From Burkholderiaceae bacterium (GTDB lineage Bacteria; Pseudomonadota; Gammaproteobacteria; Burkholderiales; Burkholderiaceae_C), in contig JAIESZ010000216.1 of assembly GCA_019745615.1 (NCBI GenBank), positions 1-34,473 on the forward strand: 34,473 nt of DNA. Reading direction: 5' to 3'. The notes under the pieces were generated by a model that was given only the letters and a program-made list of their open reading frames with translations, was not told the DNA's origin and made no database searches. Made by a program: the position numbers and the translations under genes. Numbering within the stretch: position 1 is the stretch's first letter; each line of letters begins with the position of its first letter. This document shows positions 22,177-34,417 of the stretch, in pieces.

Positions 22177-25622
<3,446 letters not shown>

Positions 25623-25627
<5 letters not shown>

Positions 25628-27917
25628 TGTTAAACGCCCCCAGCGGCGCACGCTGGTGTGGTGTGTGGCCGCATTGCCACTGCTCCTGTTGCTGTATGTG
25701 TTGGTGCTGATTCCGCTGACCCCGGCGATCAGCGACATTCGCAAAGCCAAACTAGAGCAGCCCGCGCAGGTACTGAGCAGCGACGGCAAACTGCTGGCCC
25801 AGTACCAATGGGTTCACCGCGAATGGGTGCCACTGGCCCAGATGGGGCCGCACGTGGTCGATGCACTCATTGCCACCGAAGACCACCGTTTTTACCAACA
25901 TTGGGGCCTAGACTGGCGGCGCACTGCGTCGGCGGCGCTGGCGACTTTCTCGGGCGAGCGCCAAGGCGGCTCCACCCTGACGCAGCAACTGGCGCGCAAC
26001 CTGTTTCCGGAAGACATAGGCCGTGCGCCGACGCTCACGCGCAAACTCAAAGAGGCCATTACGGCACTGAAAATTGAGCTGCTCTACTCCAAAGACGAAA
26101 TTTTGGAGACCTACCTCAACACCGTGCCGTTTCTCTACAACGCTTACGGCATCGAGATGGCCGCGCGCACCTACTTTGACACATCGGCCAGCCAATTGTC
26201 GGTGCTCGAAAGCGCCACCCTGATTGGCATGCTCAAAGGCACCAGCTACTACAACCCGGTGCTGAACCCCGAACGGGCTCAAATGCGGCGCAACACTGTG
26301 CTGGCGCAGATGGTCAAACGCGGCAAACTGGGGCCAGAGCAATTGGAGGCCTTGCAAAAACGCCCACTGCGGATTGAATTTGAGCGCCAGCCCGAGCCGC
26401 AAGGCACGGCACCCCATTTTGCCCAGCAGCTTCGCAAATGGTTGATTGTGTGGGCCGACCGCAATGGCTACAACATTTATGCCGATGGCTTGGTGGTACA
26501 CACCACCATCGACAGCCGTTTGCAGGCATGGGCCACCCAAGCTGTGGTGCGCCAAGGCCAGCGCTTGCAAAACGTGGCCGATAGCGCTTGGGCGCAGCGC
26601 AGCGGCTGGAGCATTCGCAACCCGCTAGTGCAGTCGTTGTTGCGCGAAACGCCCGAATACCGCAGTGCCGTTGCCAAAGGCCAGTCCCCAGACGAAGCCA
26701 TCAAACCCTTGTTGGCCGATGCTGCTTTGGTGCGTGCCCTGCGCCAGAGCAAAACACGGGTGCAAGCCGGGTTCATGGCATTGGAGCCGCATACGGGCCA
26801 AGTGCGCGCTTGGGTGGGGAGCCGCGATTTTGCCCAAGACCCGTTTGACCATGTGCAGCAAGCCCGTCGCCAGCCCGGATCGACCTTCAAACCGTTTGTT
26901 TATGGCGTGGCCTTTGGGCAGGGTTTGCGCGCCAGCGACACACTGGTCGATAGGGCCGTAGAAATCACCCTGCCCAGCGGTGAGGTTTGGCGACCCACCG
27001 ATGCCAGCGCTCCCAGTGGCCGGGCCATGAGCTTGCGCGATGGGTTGGCTTATTCCAAAAACACCATTACCGCCCAATTGATGGAGCAAGTCGGCCCCAG
27101 CAAAGTGGCACAACTGGCCCGAGCGATGGGCGTGCGCGACAGCAAGCTCGACGCAGTGCCGGCGCTGGCGCTGGGCACCAGCCCGGTCACGCTCAAAGAG
27201 ATGGTGTCAGCCTACGGGACCATTGCCAATGCAGGCGGCTATGTCGAGCCGGTGCTGGTGACCCGCATCGAAGACCGCCGGGGTCAAGTGCTGCAAGTGT
27301 TTGCGCCTGTGACCCCGCAAGAAGTGCTGCCTGCCCCAGCCGCGCAAACACTGCGCGATGCTTTGCGCGGCGTGATCGACCAAGGCACGGGCCGGTCGAT
27401 TCGCACCCGCTACGGCATTCGCGCAGACGTGGCGGGCAAAACGGGCACGACCCAAGACAACGCCGATGGCTGGTTTATTTTGATGCACCCGCAATTGGTA
27501 GCAGGCGCTTGGGTCGGTTTTAACGACAGCCGCATCACGCTGCGCAGCGACCACTGGGGGCAAGGCGCGAACAGCGCTCTGCCGATGGTGGGCGAGTTTT
27601 TTCAGCAAACGCTGCGCGCCAAGGCGATTGATGTGCGTGCCCGTTTTACCGACGTACCAGAACAAAACCGTTTTGGCACACTGCTCAACCGGTTGCGCGG
27701 TTGGTGGCAGACGCTGGTGGCTCCTGCATTAGCACCTGCGCCAGCACCGCCGCCGCGCTTGCCAACCCCCGAGCCTGCGCCCGCAGCAGCACCGCGCCCA
27801 GAAATCACCGAACCCTCTGGGGTCGAGCCGGTGGTATCGCCCGAGGAGCGGCAATCGATCCTTCGCCATTGGTTGGATGCCGGTGGTGGGCTTACCCCCT
27901 CAGAAAACCAGCGCTGA
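25623..27917 (+). CDS. Bifunctional penicillin-binding protein (transglycosylase/transpeptidase, PBP1 family)
   Basis: ATEDHRFYQHWGLDWRRT, GGSTLTQQLARNLF, RQPGSTFKPFVYG, AYSKNTITAQLME, AGKTGTTQDNADGWF; Pro/Ala-rich tail; TTG start. Confidence 0.93.
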
Positions 27918-28036
27918 TGTGCGGCAGATTTCGCGTTGTTTCTTACCGGAACAGAGGTTACGCTACATGTTCGTTACGACTTTTACATGATCCTGTAGAT
28001 CAGCGAATACTCATAAAAAATGGAAGGATGACGTAG
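27917..28036 (+). pseudogene. Possible truncated start of an SRAP/YedK-like gene (MCGRF...)
   Basis: ATG overlaps the PBP stop (TGATG) and reads MCGRFRVVSYRNRGYATCSLRLLHDPVDQRILIKNGRMT*; SRAP proteins begin MCGRF. Only the first five or six residues match. Confidence 0.35.
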
Positions 28037-28117
28037 AGTGAATTTGTTTTGGTATTTAAATCAAAATTTGAGGTAATTTCATAATAAGCCTTGGTGTTGC
28101 TGCGTATTAATGAATAA

Positions 28118-28672
28118 TTACAGAGGATCTTTTGGTGTGATGACTGGTAATTTTTTATTTTCACGGATTATTTTTGCAAGTTGATCTGCCTCCGCTAGTA
28201 ATTGCAATACATCTGATTTTATTTTAATGAATTTTCGATATTCTAATGAGTCATTTGGTAAGGAATCTATTCCAGAGTATTTAGATAGATACGATTCAAT
28301 TCGTCTGGTGCGTTCTAGTTTCTCTGGTGCTCCAAGCTGGACAAGAAATACGCGCCAGTCCTTGTTACCCTTGGATGAGTTACATTGCTTGCAGCATGGC
28401 AGGAGATTTCCTAGTCGATGTCCATGCCCACTAAAGTTGGAGTTCTTGACTGTAGCAAATACATGATCCCAAGTTTGAGCCGGTTCATCACAGTATGCGC
28501 ACCGCAAATTCTCTGGATCTTGGCCAAGAGTGGCAATGGTTTCTCGTACAGTAGCAGCTGAGTACTCATCGCTGGGTGCGATAGCAGCAGCGAAGGCGTG
28601 GTTAATTGTTGTCTTGCGGCGCGCTAAAATAGCGTAAGGTTTTAAATGATTTTTGACAGATGAATAGTGCAT
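28118..28672 (-). CDS. HNH endonuclease domain protein (solitary)
   Basis: CAYCDEPAQTWDHVFATVKNSNFSGHGHRLGNLLPCCKQCNSSKGNKDW: CxxC...DH...CxxCNxxKG...DW of HNH nucleases; AT-rich. Confidence 0.85.
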   Translation of the reverse strand: MHYSSVKNHLKPYAILARRKTTINHAFAAAIAPSDEYSAATVRETIATLGQDPENLRCAYCDEPAQTWDHVFATVKNSNFSGHGHRLGNLLPCCKQCNSSKGNKDWRVFLVQLGAPEKLERTRRIESYLSKYSGIDSLPNDSLEYRKFIKIKSDVLQLLAEADQLAKIIRENKKLPVITPKDPL

Positions 28673-28721
28673 TTATTTTTTATTTTTAATAAACAGATGA
28701 AAAATTTTATATTTTGCAATA

Positions 28722-31325
28722 TCAAGCTACTCCATGTGTACTCTGCGGGGTATCTGAGGCTGCTTTGAAGTCGCCTTCGGCTGGGCGGCGCAGCACCTCC
28801 ATCAGTCGGGCCACGTCCAAGCATTGCACCAAAATTTTTCCTTCGTTCGCTTTGATGAGGCGCGTAATCAATCTGCCGTTGTGTCCCGGCAAAGAGGGGG
28901 CCACAATGATCTTGCTGCCCGAAAATGCCGTGACACCGTGCAGTTCATTCACCAGCAGTCCGACGCGCCTGCCTTCGTGTTGCAGCACAATGACTTGGCT
29001 TTGTTGGGTGATCTCTGAAGGCTCACCACGCAACAAGTGCCCCAGGTCAAAAACCCAGACGTAGCCTGTGATGTTGCCGTGGGATTTGCGTGCCAGTGTG
29101 CCAATGCAATAAGGCAAGCGCCCCGCCGAGACCGAGGCAATGGCGCTGGCGGGCAGAGCCTCTAGCACCCCTTGGGCATCGAGGGCAAAAATTCCGGCAT
29201 CCACAAAGAAGGTTGCCATCTCGTGGCTGTCGGTGGGGCTGGCATCGGCCTGTAGCGCTGTGCGGCGGCGGTTGACCGCATCGAGGGCACCGTTTTGTAC
29301 CGCCCCAAACAATTTGAAGGACAGCGCCAGCACATCGCTGCGGTAGCCATCGCTGATTTTGAATTCGCGGTAGCCGTTGGAGGCCGAGCAACCGATGATG
29401 CAGTAGTGGCCGTCATGCACCATCGTGCGCGAGAGGCTTTGGCCGTTGGGCAGGGTTGCCATGTCGGGTTGTAGCGCCATTTGGTGGCCTACGGGCCGGG
29501 CTGGGTCGGTGCTGGCAAGAACCAAGCCTTGGCGATCAACAAACACCGCCAGCGTACCGGGTTTGTTGGCCGTGGCCCCCTTGAGCATGGCAGCAAACTC
29601 GGTGCTGGAGTTAAAAACAATGCCAATGCCCCCGACGATGTTGGCATCGTCGCCCGGGGCGCGGATGGCCGCGTGGTACACGTAGGTCGGTTTGCCATCG
29701 TCCAAGGCCGAGGTCGTCCACGGGGTGACGTGGTACGACTGGGTGCTGGGCAGGGCCAGCACAGCGGCTACGGTCTCTTCTTCGATAAAGGTGCCAATGA
29801 CGCTGCTGCCGTCTTGGCAGGTCGGGCGGCTGGCAGCGACGATGCGACCTTGGCGGTCGTACACCACCAAGCGTGTATAGACGGTGTAGAGACCGTTGAT
29901 ATGCTCCAAAATGCGCCCAATGGCGTTGTAGTCGTTCGTGCTGGTGTGGGTGCCGCCGTTGGCTCGGTCGGCCAACAATGCCCGTAACTCGGGTGTCAAT
30001 GCCCACCAGCGGCAGTCGTTGGCCCGTTCGTACAGGTTGCGGTCGAGCAAATCGACCAGCAATTGCGTCAAAAACTCGCCATCGCGCATGCTCGAACTGA
30101 GCACCGTGTCGTACAAATCCCGGATCGATTGGGTGAACACCTCGTTGGTGCGTGCGCCGGTTTCGCCAATTTGATCCAGAATGGCTTTGAGTTTTTGCAC
30201 GTTGCCCGGCTGCCCGGCAGACATGACTTGGCCGTTCCAGACCACGCGGCGAATGGTGTTGGCCGCTGTGACAATTTCGTACAACGGGGGGCAAAAGGTT
30301 TGTGCGTGGGCCAACAGGCCTTGGGCGATGGCGGGTTCGAGGTTGTCGATGGCTCGCCCTGTTTTGGCCGAGAAGGCCAGCTCAATCGGCACCATGACTT
30401 GTCCCTTCCACCCGGCTGGGCCGGGGTAGCCTTGGTAGTTCTGTGCCACCATGGTTCGCACCAAATAGGTGCGTCCACCGTAGATCATTAACTGCGGCAC
30501 CCCGTTGGGGTTGGTGGGCACTGGGGCACCGATTGGAATCCACAGTGCATCGCTGCTAGAAACAACACGGTTTTGTGCGTTCAGCAGCAGCGCGATGTTG
30601 CGGTAATCTGCATCTTGCCGTGAGTGAAATATGCTGTCCATCTCGCGCTGAAAGCCAAAGCTCAGGCACAGTACACCCACCGGCTCGTTGGTGCGCGGGT
30701 CGAGCATGCGGTGTGAGTAGATGAGTGCGTGGCGCTTGCCTGGGCGCAGGTCGCTAGAGCGAAACGTCTCGACATAGCCATTGTTTTGCAGTGTTTGCCG
30801 AATCAGCGGGTCGCGGCTGCCTTCGACCGGTGAGTCTTCATCGGTTTGGGCCAGTACGTTGCCTCGGGGGTCCAGCAACAAAATTTCGTCGTACACCGTG
30901 TATTTGTTGCGGTATTCACGCAGCCGGGCGATGACCGGGCCGGGGTCTGGTTGGGTGCCCGCGACGAAGCGGCACAGTTCTTGGTCGGTGGCCAAGAAGC
31001 CGACATCGGCAGTGCGTTCGTAGAGGTTGCGCACCACGATGTCAATGACGTGGTGGGCGTGGGTGCCGATTTCGTCCATCACTTTGGTAATCGACTCATG
31101 CACCAAAGAGGTGACCAGATCGCCTTCCAGCCGTTGAAAGCCTTCGCGCGTAGCGGCCATCATCGGCAAAATGTTGTGCGCCTCTTCAGGACAGTTCATT
31201 TTGGCCGAGGCTTCTATTAGTCGCCACATCAGGTTGAGTTCGCGCAGCGAGGTTTCGCAGCGTGCAACATCGCGCATAAAGGGCATGAAGGTGTCGATAT
31301 GGACAGTGGCGCTCGATGATGGCAT
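28722..31325 (-). CDS. Soluble tandem-Cache sensor protein with C-terminal CheW domain
   Basis: Two repeated Cache-like blocks (NLYERTADVGFLAT...YTVYDEILLLDPRGNVLAQTD and NLYERANDCRWWAL...YTVYTRLVVYDRQGRIVAAS) then CheW-like VIVLQHEGRRVGLLVNELHGVTAFSG...; no TM stretch seen. Start set at MPSSSATVHID. Confidence 0.8.
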   Translation of the reverse strand: MPSSSATVHIDTFMPFMRDVARCETSLRELNLMWRLIEASAKMNCPEEAHNILPMMAATREGFQRLEGDLVTSLVHESITKVMDEIGTHAHHVIDIVVRNLYERTADVGFLATDQELCRFVAGTQPDPGPVIARLREYRNKYTVYDEILLLDPRGNVLAQTDEDSPVEGSRDPLIRQTLQNNGYVETFRSSDLRPGKRHALIYSHRMLDPRTNEPVGVLCLSFGFQREMDSIFHSRQDADYRNIALLLNAQNRVVSSSDALWIPIGAPVPTNPNGVPQLMIYGGRTYLVRTMVAQNYQGYPGPAGWKGQVMVPIELAFSAKTGRAIDNLEPAIAQGLLAHAQTFCPPLYEIVTAANTIRRVVWNGQVMSAGQPGNVQKLKAILDQIGETGARTNEVFTQSIRDLYDTVLSSSMRDGEFLTQLLVDLLDRNLYERANDCRWWALTPELRALLADRANGGTHTSTNDYNAIGRILEHINGLYTVYTRLVVYDRQGRIVAASRPTCQDGSSVIGTFIEEETVAAVLALPSTQSYHVTPWTTSALDDGKPTYVYHAAIRAPGDDANIVGGIGIVFNSSTEFAAMLKGATANKPGTLAVFVDRQGLVLASTDPARPVGHQMALQPDMATLPNGQSLSRTMVHDGHYCIIGCSASNGYREFKISDGYRSDVLALSFKLFGAVQNGALDAVNRRRTALQADASPTDSHEMATFFVDAGIFALDAQGVLEALPASAIASVSAGRLPYCIGTLARKSHGNITGYVWVFDLGHLLRGEPSEITQQSQVIVLQHEGRRVGLLVNELHGVTAFSGSKIIVAPSLPGHNGRLITRLIKANEGKILVQCLDVARLMEVLRRPAEGDFKAASDTPQSTHGVA

Positions 31326-31509: not shown

Positions 31510-31573
31510 CAAGTAAAAGGCATAATACTTCGATGACCCCAATCTAACCATTCAAAAATTCAAGGTTCTTTTG

Positions 31574-34417
31574 ATGCGCGACTCTATTTTTCAGGCGAAA
31601 CCACTGCACATCGCACTTGCAAGTCTGATGCTGGGCTTGGTTGTCATTTTTTACCTATCGATGCAATCGATGACTTTGTACCTTGGTAATGAACGTGACT
31701 TACGGGTCGCTGATGACAAAGTAGAGCGCGTTAGTCGAGAACTAAACGGGGTGTTTGATGCCGAATTACTGCCGATGAAAAGTGCTATAAAAAATATTAG
31801 CAGAAACTCCATTGGTTACCGGAAAAACCCACGAAGCCCGACTTGGGCAACTTGGCCCAATGGCGGCAGCACTGCGACAAAACCCATCGGCTGGTTCTGT
31901 GTACGCTGGAACATTGAATGGTTCCTTTGTCTTGATGCGTAATCTCAAAGATCAACCCAAAGATCGTAAAACCTTCAATGCACCAGAAGAGGCTATGTTT
32001 TTAGTACAAAGCGTAGATCGTGACAAAGAGGATTTTATAGGATATTTTTACTTTTATGATGCTGGATTAAACTTAATTCAAACTTTAGAAAAACCAGAAT
32101 ACCAATTTGATCCACGCATTCGCCCTTGGTACTTACAAGCTAAATCTGCAAATACGCCAGATGGCATCATACAAACAGTACCTTATGTCTTCTCTTCTAA
32201 CCAAAAAATTGGTATTACTTTAGCCACCATTGGCGTAGGGAAAGAAGGTGTTGTTGGGATAGATATGAGTTTGACTGGTTTATCTCGTCTAGTAGAAAAG
32301 CAAAATATAACGCCATCAGCTGAGTTGGTTCTTTTTAATTCTTCTGGTGTTGTATTGGCTTACCGTGATGCTTCGAAAATTTTCAAGAAAAACAGTGCTG
32401 GGAAAGATGATGTAGTGCTGGTAAATGAACTTGGTGTTCCTGCGCTTTCTGAATTATTTGAAAAATGGAAAACCTACTCTTACAATAATAAAAATTCTGA
32501 AAAAACAAATTCGCAAATAAATGTAGATGGTGATAAATGGTATTATCGCGTAGAGTCAATAGATGACTCTGGTGCAGAGAGGTTATTTTTAGGTGTTGCT
32601 ATACCTTATGAGGAATTAATGGCCGATTCCATTCATATGCGTAACTTGTCAGTATTTTTGGGGTTGGTGTTTACTTTGTTAATGCTTCCAGCAGTATTTT
32701 ATGCATCAAAAAAAATATCAAGGCCTTTGCGTGATTTGGTGAAGATAGCAAATTCAATTCAGAGATTTGATTTTTCTGGCCCTGATCCGTTGCGAAGCAG
32801 TATTGCAGAAGTAGATAATTTAGCGCTTAATATGACAAGCATGAAGCATACGCTAAAGCGCTTCTTGGAAATATCTGGAGCTCTTAGTAGAGAAAGTGAT
32901 TTTGAAAAATTAATTAACATTATACTGCGAGAAACCATTTCGATATCTGGTGCTGTTGGTGGTTCTTTGATATTAATATCAAATGATGGGAAAGAAGCAA
33001 AAATTGCAGCGCAACAATTCAATAAAATTGAGCAGGATATTGCTGCCTTGCCGGCATACAATTTAAATGATGGGGAAAATATCCGCTAGAGGTTAGATCT
33101 ATAATGGATGGCTGCTTGAAATCAATTCGCGTCAGTAGAGATGATTCGTTGGATCTTATAAATTATTCTAATTTATTTAAATCATTTGATATTTTAAATG
33201 CACATATTGTTTCTTTGCCATTGCGCAATCGTTCTAATGAAGTTTTAGGGTCATTAGTTCTGAATTTGCCGATTTCTCCTGCTGACTATGCTAGTTCAGC
33301 ACCTATTCCTTCGGAGTTGTTGGCGTTTCTTGATGCATTATCAGGTACTGCTGCAGTGGCAATTGATAATCAGAAAATGATTCAAGATCAGAAAATATTG
33401 CTTGAGAGTTTAATTCAATTGGTGGCTGGTGCAATTGACGCTAAAAGCCCTTACAGTGGTAGCCACTGCCAACGTGTTCCTGAGCTTACAAAAATGTTAG
33501 CTCAGGCAGCTTGCGAGAAAAATGATGGGCCTTTTGCTCATTTTTCTCTGACGGAGGGGGATCGTGAGACTTTGCACATTGCAAGTTGGTTACATGATTG
33601 TGGCAAGGTGACTACACCAGAATTTGTTGTTGATAAAGCCACAAAACTGGAAACTATTTACGATCGAATTCACGAAATTCGTATGCGATTTGAAGTGCTA
33701 AAAAGAGATGCTGAAATTTCTGCCTATCAAGAAGCACTCTATAAATTTCCGGCTGAAACCATCAATATGGATGAACTGCAAAAAGTAATTATACAAAAAT
33801 GTTCAATTTTGGATGAAGAATTTAATTTTATTGCTGCTTGTAATGTTGGCGATGAATTTATGTCACCAGATAAAGTAGAACGACTGAATTCTATAGCGGA
33901 GCGACGTTGGTTAAGAACTATAGACGACAGCCTTGGTATCTCTTACCCAGAGTTATTGCGGCGCAAAGACCAACAGAAAACCAAACTCCCAGTTTTTGAA
34001 AATTTAATTTCAGATAAACCAGAGCATATTTTTCCGCGTGTAGGCCGTGACGTGATTGATACCGAAAATAATCCATGGGGATTTAAAATTTCTTCACCGG
34101 AAAATTTGTACAACCGAGGTGAGTTGTATAACCTCTCTATTGCCAGAGGAACATTAACTAATGAAGAACGTTATAAAATTAATGAGCATATTATTCAAAC
34201 CATAAAAATGTTGTCTGCACTACCTTTTCCAAAACATCTGAGCAGAGTAACTGAAATTGCTGGCGGACACCACGAAAAAATGGATGGCACTGGCTATCCA
34301 TATCGTTTATCTCAACAAGAGATGAGTATTGAGGCGCGAATTATGGCTATTGCAGATATATTTGAAGCACTAACTGCAGTAGACCGCCCATATAAAAAAG
34401 GGCGGATTCAAAACTGA
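31574..34417 (+). pseudogene. Cache-HAMP-GAF-HD-GYP (putative c-di-GMP phosphodiesterase), split by two single-base frameshifts and truncated by an IS junction
   Basis: ORFs 31571-31942, 31812-33089 and 33104-34417 read as one protein after a 1-nt correction near 31809 and another near 33076; HD motif WLHDCGKVTTPEFVVDK and HHEKMDGTGYP; ends at DRPYKK inside the GYP domain. Confidence 0.82.

Follow-up and report, generated by a model that had tools for sequence, protein, structure and literature searches.

Diagrams of chemotaxis arrays usually let signals in through MCPs only. One gene in the window (the whole 34,473-nt stretch of a Burkholderiaceae bacterium contig that was analysed) raises the question of whether a protein combining sensor domains with a CheW domain could offer another point of entry: the first-pass annotation had read its product as a soluble, non-MCP protein with two similar Cache-like sensory blocks and a C-terminal CheW domain. 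The reading frame of about 868 aa described there is present on the minus strand, running from an ATG at 31325 to a stop at 28722 and encoding 867 aa. An in-frame TTG upstream could move the start to 31391, for a product of 889 aa, and no hydrophobic segment would be gained. NCBIfam holds no model for a tandem dCache-CheW protein. Just downstream of the gene lies an AT-rich ORF of 184 aa (28118-28672, minus strand) with a weak match to an HNH endonuclease (E=0.002, under the cut-off); at the matching position Giesbergeria (L027) has a gene for a DNA/RNA non-specific endonuclease, and contig C305 a similar-looking ORF.

The sensory part of the protein is built of two related units (Table 1). 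Pfam dCache_1 matches two stretches of the query with E=4.9e-10 and 39.8 bits, under its cut-off of 45, which is exceeded in three relatives (50.7, 58.0 and 63.1 bits). When residues 10-330 were aligned with residues 330-690, profile against profile, hhalign returned a probability of 99.75% (E=2e-27) over 309 columns; judged from the sequence, these two units of ~320 aa are an internal duplication. Since the repeat takes in the entire ~320 residues, helical hairpin and double Cache together, the protein carries four Cache lobes rather than two single Caches. The proposal of two similar blocks therefore stood, while that of a single Cache in each block did not. An AlphaFold model made with an alignment of 90 homologues as input (mean pLDDT 91.2, pTM 0.88) has two pairs of helices, each running into a dCache, and ends in a CheW barrel, and a Foldseek search of the PDB matched the dCaches to DctB, Mlp37 and Tlp3. 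Pfam, AlphaFold and Foldseek thus agree in recovering both the Cache and the CheW fold, and both structural methods give the sensor units as a double Cache following a long N-terminal helix. The NLYER motif first noted in block 1 is part of a near-invariant NLYERTAD(V/I)GF, found in 87/90 homologues (R99, L101, E103-D107, F110 and D114 are invariant in the alignment); unit 2 has ERAND(C/V)RWW in all 90, and the linker that forms its hairpin bears a VWNG motif in 81/90. A regular-expression search for the amino-acid dCache (dCache_1AA) signature found its core R-x-W-Y in 1/90 homologues and a relaxed form in 0/90, and no dCache ligand signature was recognised among these 90 sequences.

Table 1. 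Features of the dCache-CheW gene, in window coordinates
Feature	Coordinates	Strand	Evidence
Whole gene, [helical hairpin + NLYER-dCache] x2 + CheW	28722..31325	-	90 homologues aligned, AlphaFold
Unit 1 helical hairpin, residues 18-111, into first dCache	30993..31274	-	AlphaFold helices 18-44, 53-111
Unit 1 motif RNLYERTADVGFLATD, residues 99-114	30984..31031	-	motif in 87/90 homologues
dCache unit 1, about residues 95-317	30375..31043	-	Pfam dCache_1 140-263; AlphaFold/Foldseek
Unit 2 helical hairpin, residues 346-441, with VWNG motif	30003..30290	-	AlphaFold helices 346-369, 376-441
Unit 2 motif RNLYERANDCRWWAL, residues 429-443	29997..30041	-	ERAND(C/V)RWW in 90/90 homologues
dCache unit 2, about residues 420-675	29301..30068	-	mini-MCP sensor-half profile match 99.9%, E=1e-36; internal duplicate of unit 1
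CheW domain, about residues 700-846	28788..29228	-	PF01584; PDB profile match; Foldseek
E722, equivalent of E. coli CheW Glu38 (receptor contact)	29160..29162	-	E in 79/90 homologues
Altered loop GTLARKSHGNITGYVWVFD, residues 742-760, replacing canonical GVxNLRGxxxPVxD of CheW	29046..29102	-	alignment

The C-terminal domain was correctly called as CheW. Pfam CheW (PF01584) covers residues 703-843 with E=8.9e-13 and 48.5 bits, well over its cut-off of 23.5; in the PDB, the family profile matched six sequences of CheW (E=1.7e-13), and Foldseek retrieved the CheW of 2ch4 (TM 0.85 by target length). A PDB search with the single sequence gave chance matches only, and the family profile was needed to reach CheW. 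Individual residues were compared by alignment with canonical CheW, CheV-like and CheA-P5 domains from the same bin. Besides the Glu38 equivalent, the position of E. coli CheW Gly57 is kept in 90/90 homologues and that of Asp70 in 82/90. The Arg62 column is variable (R in 14/90), NLRG is not conserved and a variable loop takes its place, and the Pro67 position is Trp in 64/90. The domain has the CheW fold but, on these residues, falls outside canonical CheW. In E. coli CheW, E38A disrupts receptor binding, whereas R62A keeps receptor and CheA binding and impairs chemotaxis; the Arg62-Glu38 bridge aligns the receptor and kinase binding sites (PMC3828127). As Arg62 is dispensable there for binding and needed for alignment, the present protein is predicted to dock without normal CheW coupling, which would make it a modulator rather than a CheW substitute, and with the NLRG motif gone the docking geometry may differ.

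Loss of the Arg62/NLRG coupling element would also suit a structural or inhibitory CheW-like cap, whose Caches bind no ligand and which, with no sensory input, restricts the growth of the array or takes the place of CheW. Having a CheW-like domain does not make a protein a sensor, as ParP of Vibrio illustrates, and the missing amino-acid-type dCache motif points the same way. Set against this, dozens of residues in the sensor units are invariant or nearly so in the homologue alignment despite overall identities of 27-75%, which would be unusual for inert spacers, and two complete dCaches have been kept. We therefore hold a cap to be rather unlikely.

We next consider where the protein resides. 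A hydropathy scan found no transmembrane (TM) segment or signal peptide in the query or 89 homologues: over windows of 19 residues the Kyte-Doolittle mean peaks at 1.38 in the query and at 1.88 or lower in every homologue, compared with 2.55 in a control MCP, and the N-terminal 70 residues of the homologues are polar (maximum <=1.39). Since hydrophobic, TM-like windows are absent, the protein is predicted to be cytoplasmic. The query has no match to the MCP signalling tip (PF00015) in Pfam, and the tip motif occurs in 0/90 homologues. On all three points, a soluble product, a cytoplasmic placement (here as a prediction) and a non-MCP nature, the first-pass annotation is upheld. It could be objected that 78% of Cache domains are confidently predicted to be extracellular (PMC4822843), so that the units might be periplasmic after all and this topology wrong. 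That is highly improbable given the lack of a hydrophobic segment or N-terminal signal sequence across the query and 89 homologues; moreover, the Caches and the CheW domain form one continuous chain, and the nearest relatives of the units are themselves soluble MCPs.

These relatives (L104-L106, L159-L162) are mini-MCPs of ~345 aa, carried on plasmids and megaplasmids of Caballeronia, Burkholderia, Paraburkholderia, Methylobacterium, Niveispirillum and Tistrella. The MCP tip (PF00015) comes first, followed by a single C-terminal NLYER-dCache, and no TM region was seen by inspection; they seem to represent an uncommon kind of cytoplasmic chemoreceptor. Their sensor unit is homologous to both units of the dCache-CheW protein (hhalign 99.8%, E=4e-30 for unit 1; 99.9%, E=1e-36 for unit 2), the difference being that the mini-MCPs combine one unit with an MCP tip, and the dCache-CheW protein, which lacks a tip, combines two with a CheW domain. 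Because mini-MCPs pair a soluble NLYER-dCache with an MCP tip, soluble dCache sensors tied to chemotaxis signalling already exist, and two soluble dCaches in one protein, though unusual for a mostly extracellular domain, are not unprecedented. The family may have arisen from mini-MCP-like proteins by loss of the tip, duplication of the sensor and gain of CheW. Alignment of residues 1-110 with the mini-MCPs is confined to the NLYER start, and the unit 2 linker, in its second helix, matches the C-terminal hairpin helix of the mini-MCPs weakly on its own (probability 58%) and more convincingly only within a larger alignment. The N-terminal region may be a relic of an MCP hairpin; the unit 1 hairpin, which has no MCPsignal match in Pfam, is possibly a decayed hairpin of this kind.

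The domain order recurs in many genomes, and the tandem dCache-CheW protein is a conserved family. Homologues at 43-75% identity occur in Simplicispira, Giesbergeria, Acidovorax, Comamonas, Extensimonas, Malikia, Rugamonas, Duganella, Massilia, Thiobacillus and others. Within the same taxonomic family, 64/301 sampled genomes are carriers, from 39/141 genera, and the matches split into a close and a distant subfamily, the latter at 31-40% identity. Twenty members of the distant subfamily were fetched, and their C-termini are CheW-like in all but one, whose reading frame runs on into unrelated sequence; Pfam verified the CheW ending in three. At class level 4/274 genomes matched, and a profile search at phylum level, in which the top three candidates per genome were scored, gave at least 3/299.

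The same bin holds a second copy of the gene (C305, L164), 62% identical to the query. We rejected it as a paralogue: its surroundings are again ligA and PBP genes, the second ligA being 81% identical, so that the MAG contains two syntenic regions of ligA, penicillin-binding protein and Cache-CheW genes (C305 and window positions 22177-31325). Because of this synteny, and because the gene is absent from four genomes of the same genus, we took the copy for an orthologue that belongs to a different organism and did not count it as a duplication. Two related organisms are probably mixed in the bin, and the contig of the window may lie outside the named genus. Another contig of the bin (C224; L002, L007, L009) encodes, in one 539-aa frame, a protein of the 3xCheW type with three CheW domains.

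The gene co-occurs with CheA. With a strong CheA defined by the CheA dimerisation domain (PF02895, E <=1e-15) and counts tallied by hand, 61/64 carriers have one compared with 142/237 non-carriers (Fisher p=4e-9, kinship ignored), an association that is confounded by phylogeny and motility. The three remaining carriers are G326, G422 and G564, with 45, 7 and 4 MCP matches, respectively. No CheA was detected in G326 or G422, which are nearly complete multi-contig drafts; G564 is 58% complete and has a CheA match that falls narrowly short of the threshold. It is plausible that these assemblies lack a che contig. In G422 the dCache-CheW protein holds the sole CheW domain found, which, with CheA undetected, speaks mildly against an obligate role at arrays.

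The gene does not belong to a che cluster: that location was rejected, as no CheA or CheW homologue lies in the flanks of any of 100 loci. The close neighbours are of other kinds. Within 1.2 kb we counted 23 GGDEF/EAL genes, at 21/100 loci, often on the same strand and 24-130 bp away; such neighbours occur in Giesbergeria, Rugamonas, Pseudoduganella and an Oxalobacteraceae MAG. Given the presence of such genes in a flank, their proximity has a binomial p=3e-10, with related loci not collapsed. MCP genes are close neighbours in six cases among the 100 loci. The divergently oriented neighbour in the window carries, by Pfam, dCache_1, HAMP and HD-GYP domains. This gene (31571-34417, plus strand) is split, with 31571-31942 and 33104-34417 in one frame and 31812-33089 in another; the two frameshifts suggest an assembly error or a pseudogene.

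The recurrent GGDEF-EAL adjacency is the basis for a different reading, in which CheW has been repurposed and the protein is a soluble sensor partner of c-di-GMP enzymes away from the array, or links one of them to a particular MCP. The HD-GYP neighbour in the window, the loss of NLRG from the CheW domain and the undetected CheA of G422 would all fit such a partner. The adjacency itself is nevertheless seen at a minority of loci (79/100 have no GGDEF-EAL neighbour within 1.2 kb), genomes of this sort are generally rich in GGDEF-EAL genes, and MCP genes are likewise found close by. Retention of the CheW fold with its Glu38 and Gly57 positions, together with the strong co-occurrence with CheA, also argues against it, and we regard this partnership as unlikely.

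Altogether, we think it probable, though far from certain, that the protein works in the cytoplasm as a tandem-dCache receptor-adaptor, entering CheA/CheW arrays through its CheW domain and modulating CheA. The lost NLRG motif, the lack of CheA and CheW homologues in the flanks, the two carriers in which no CheA was detected and the failure to recognise a ligand signature weigh against this reading. The two NLYER-dCache units would sense an intracellular ligand, the C-terminal CheW domain would occupy a CheW position in the CheA/CheW/MCP array, and the state of the ligand would alter CheA activity or the coupling of the array. Docking at the array and binding of a ligand are what we infer here, as is the direction of the effect. 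A more speculative extension, to which we give little weight, is that a conserved, mini-MCP-derived class of proteins, its CheW domain altered at the joint of receptor and kinase, feeds an internal metabolite signal into flagellar arrays from the CheW position and, through the GGDEF-EAL neighbours, links the state of those arrays to c-di-GMP. If that neighbourhood is functional, it would offer a concrete candidate for a connection of c-di-GMP with signalling by the array. The receptor-adaptor reading would also mean that the commonest bacterial extracellular sensor fold serves inside the cell in a large environmental and host-associated group. Furthermore, as Arg62 has been lost naturally, the role of the salt bridge becomes testable in a native protein.

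Several known systems share parts of this architecture. By Foldseek, the double-Cache fold is common to the dCache_1 chemoreceptors (Mlp37, Tlp3, PctA) and DctB; those proteins are periplasmic and have TM helices, whereas the units described here are predicted to be cytoplasmic, stand in tandem and lack the core of the amino-acid motif. CheV, too, is an adaptor in which CheW is joined to a further regulatory domain. That domain is a phosphorylatable receiver, while the dCache-CheW protein has no response-regulator match in Pfam, and NLRG, which is not conserved in the dCache-CheW family, is present in the CheV-like protein from the same bin.

Sensing by CheW-fused proteins is a published concept. 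According to the main text of Muok et al. 2023 (PMC10653840), 30 CheW architectures were undescribed in the literature, 12 of them with input domains; the authors mention CZB and PAS by name, and CheW-CZB and PAS-CheW, as here, fuse an input domain to CheW. The word Cache is absent from that main text, although the full architecture list of the paper may include the combination. Our literature search for Cache-CheW or dCache-CheW proteins found no describing paper, and the tandem dCache-CheW family is apparently uncharacterised.

The closest parallel is CheWS of Treponema denticola, which the main text of PMC10653840 calls the first characterised CheW-fused chemotaxis sensor; it is anchored in the array and mediates SAM taxis. 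Both proteins join a sensor and CheW in one soluble chain, and CheWS is proposed there to pass an intracellular signal directly to the array. They differ in that CheWS, from spirochetes, has a CheR-like SAM-binding domain after CheW, whereas the present protein, from Burkholderiales and relatives, has two dCache units before it. Array anchoring has been demonstrated for CheWS, while for the dCache-CheW protein we infer it. CheWS showed that a sensor can enter the array via CheW, and the dCache-CheW family would show the same route.
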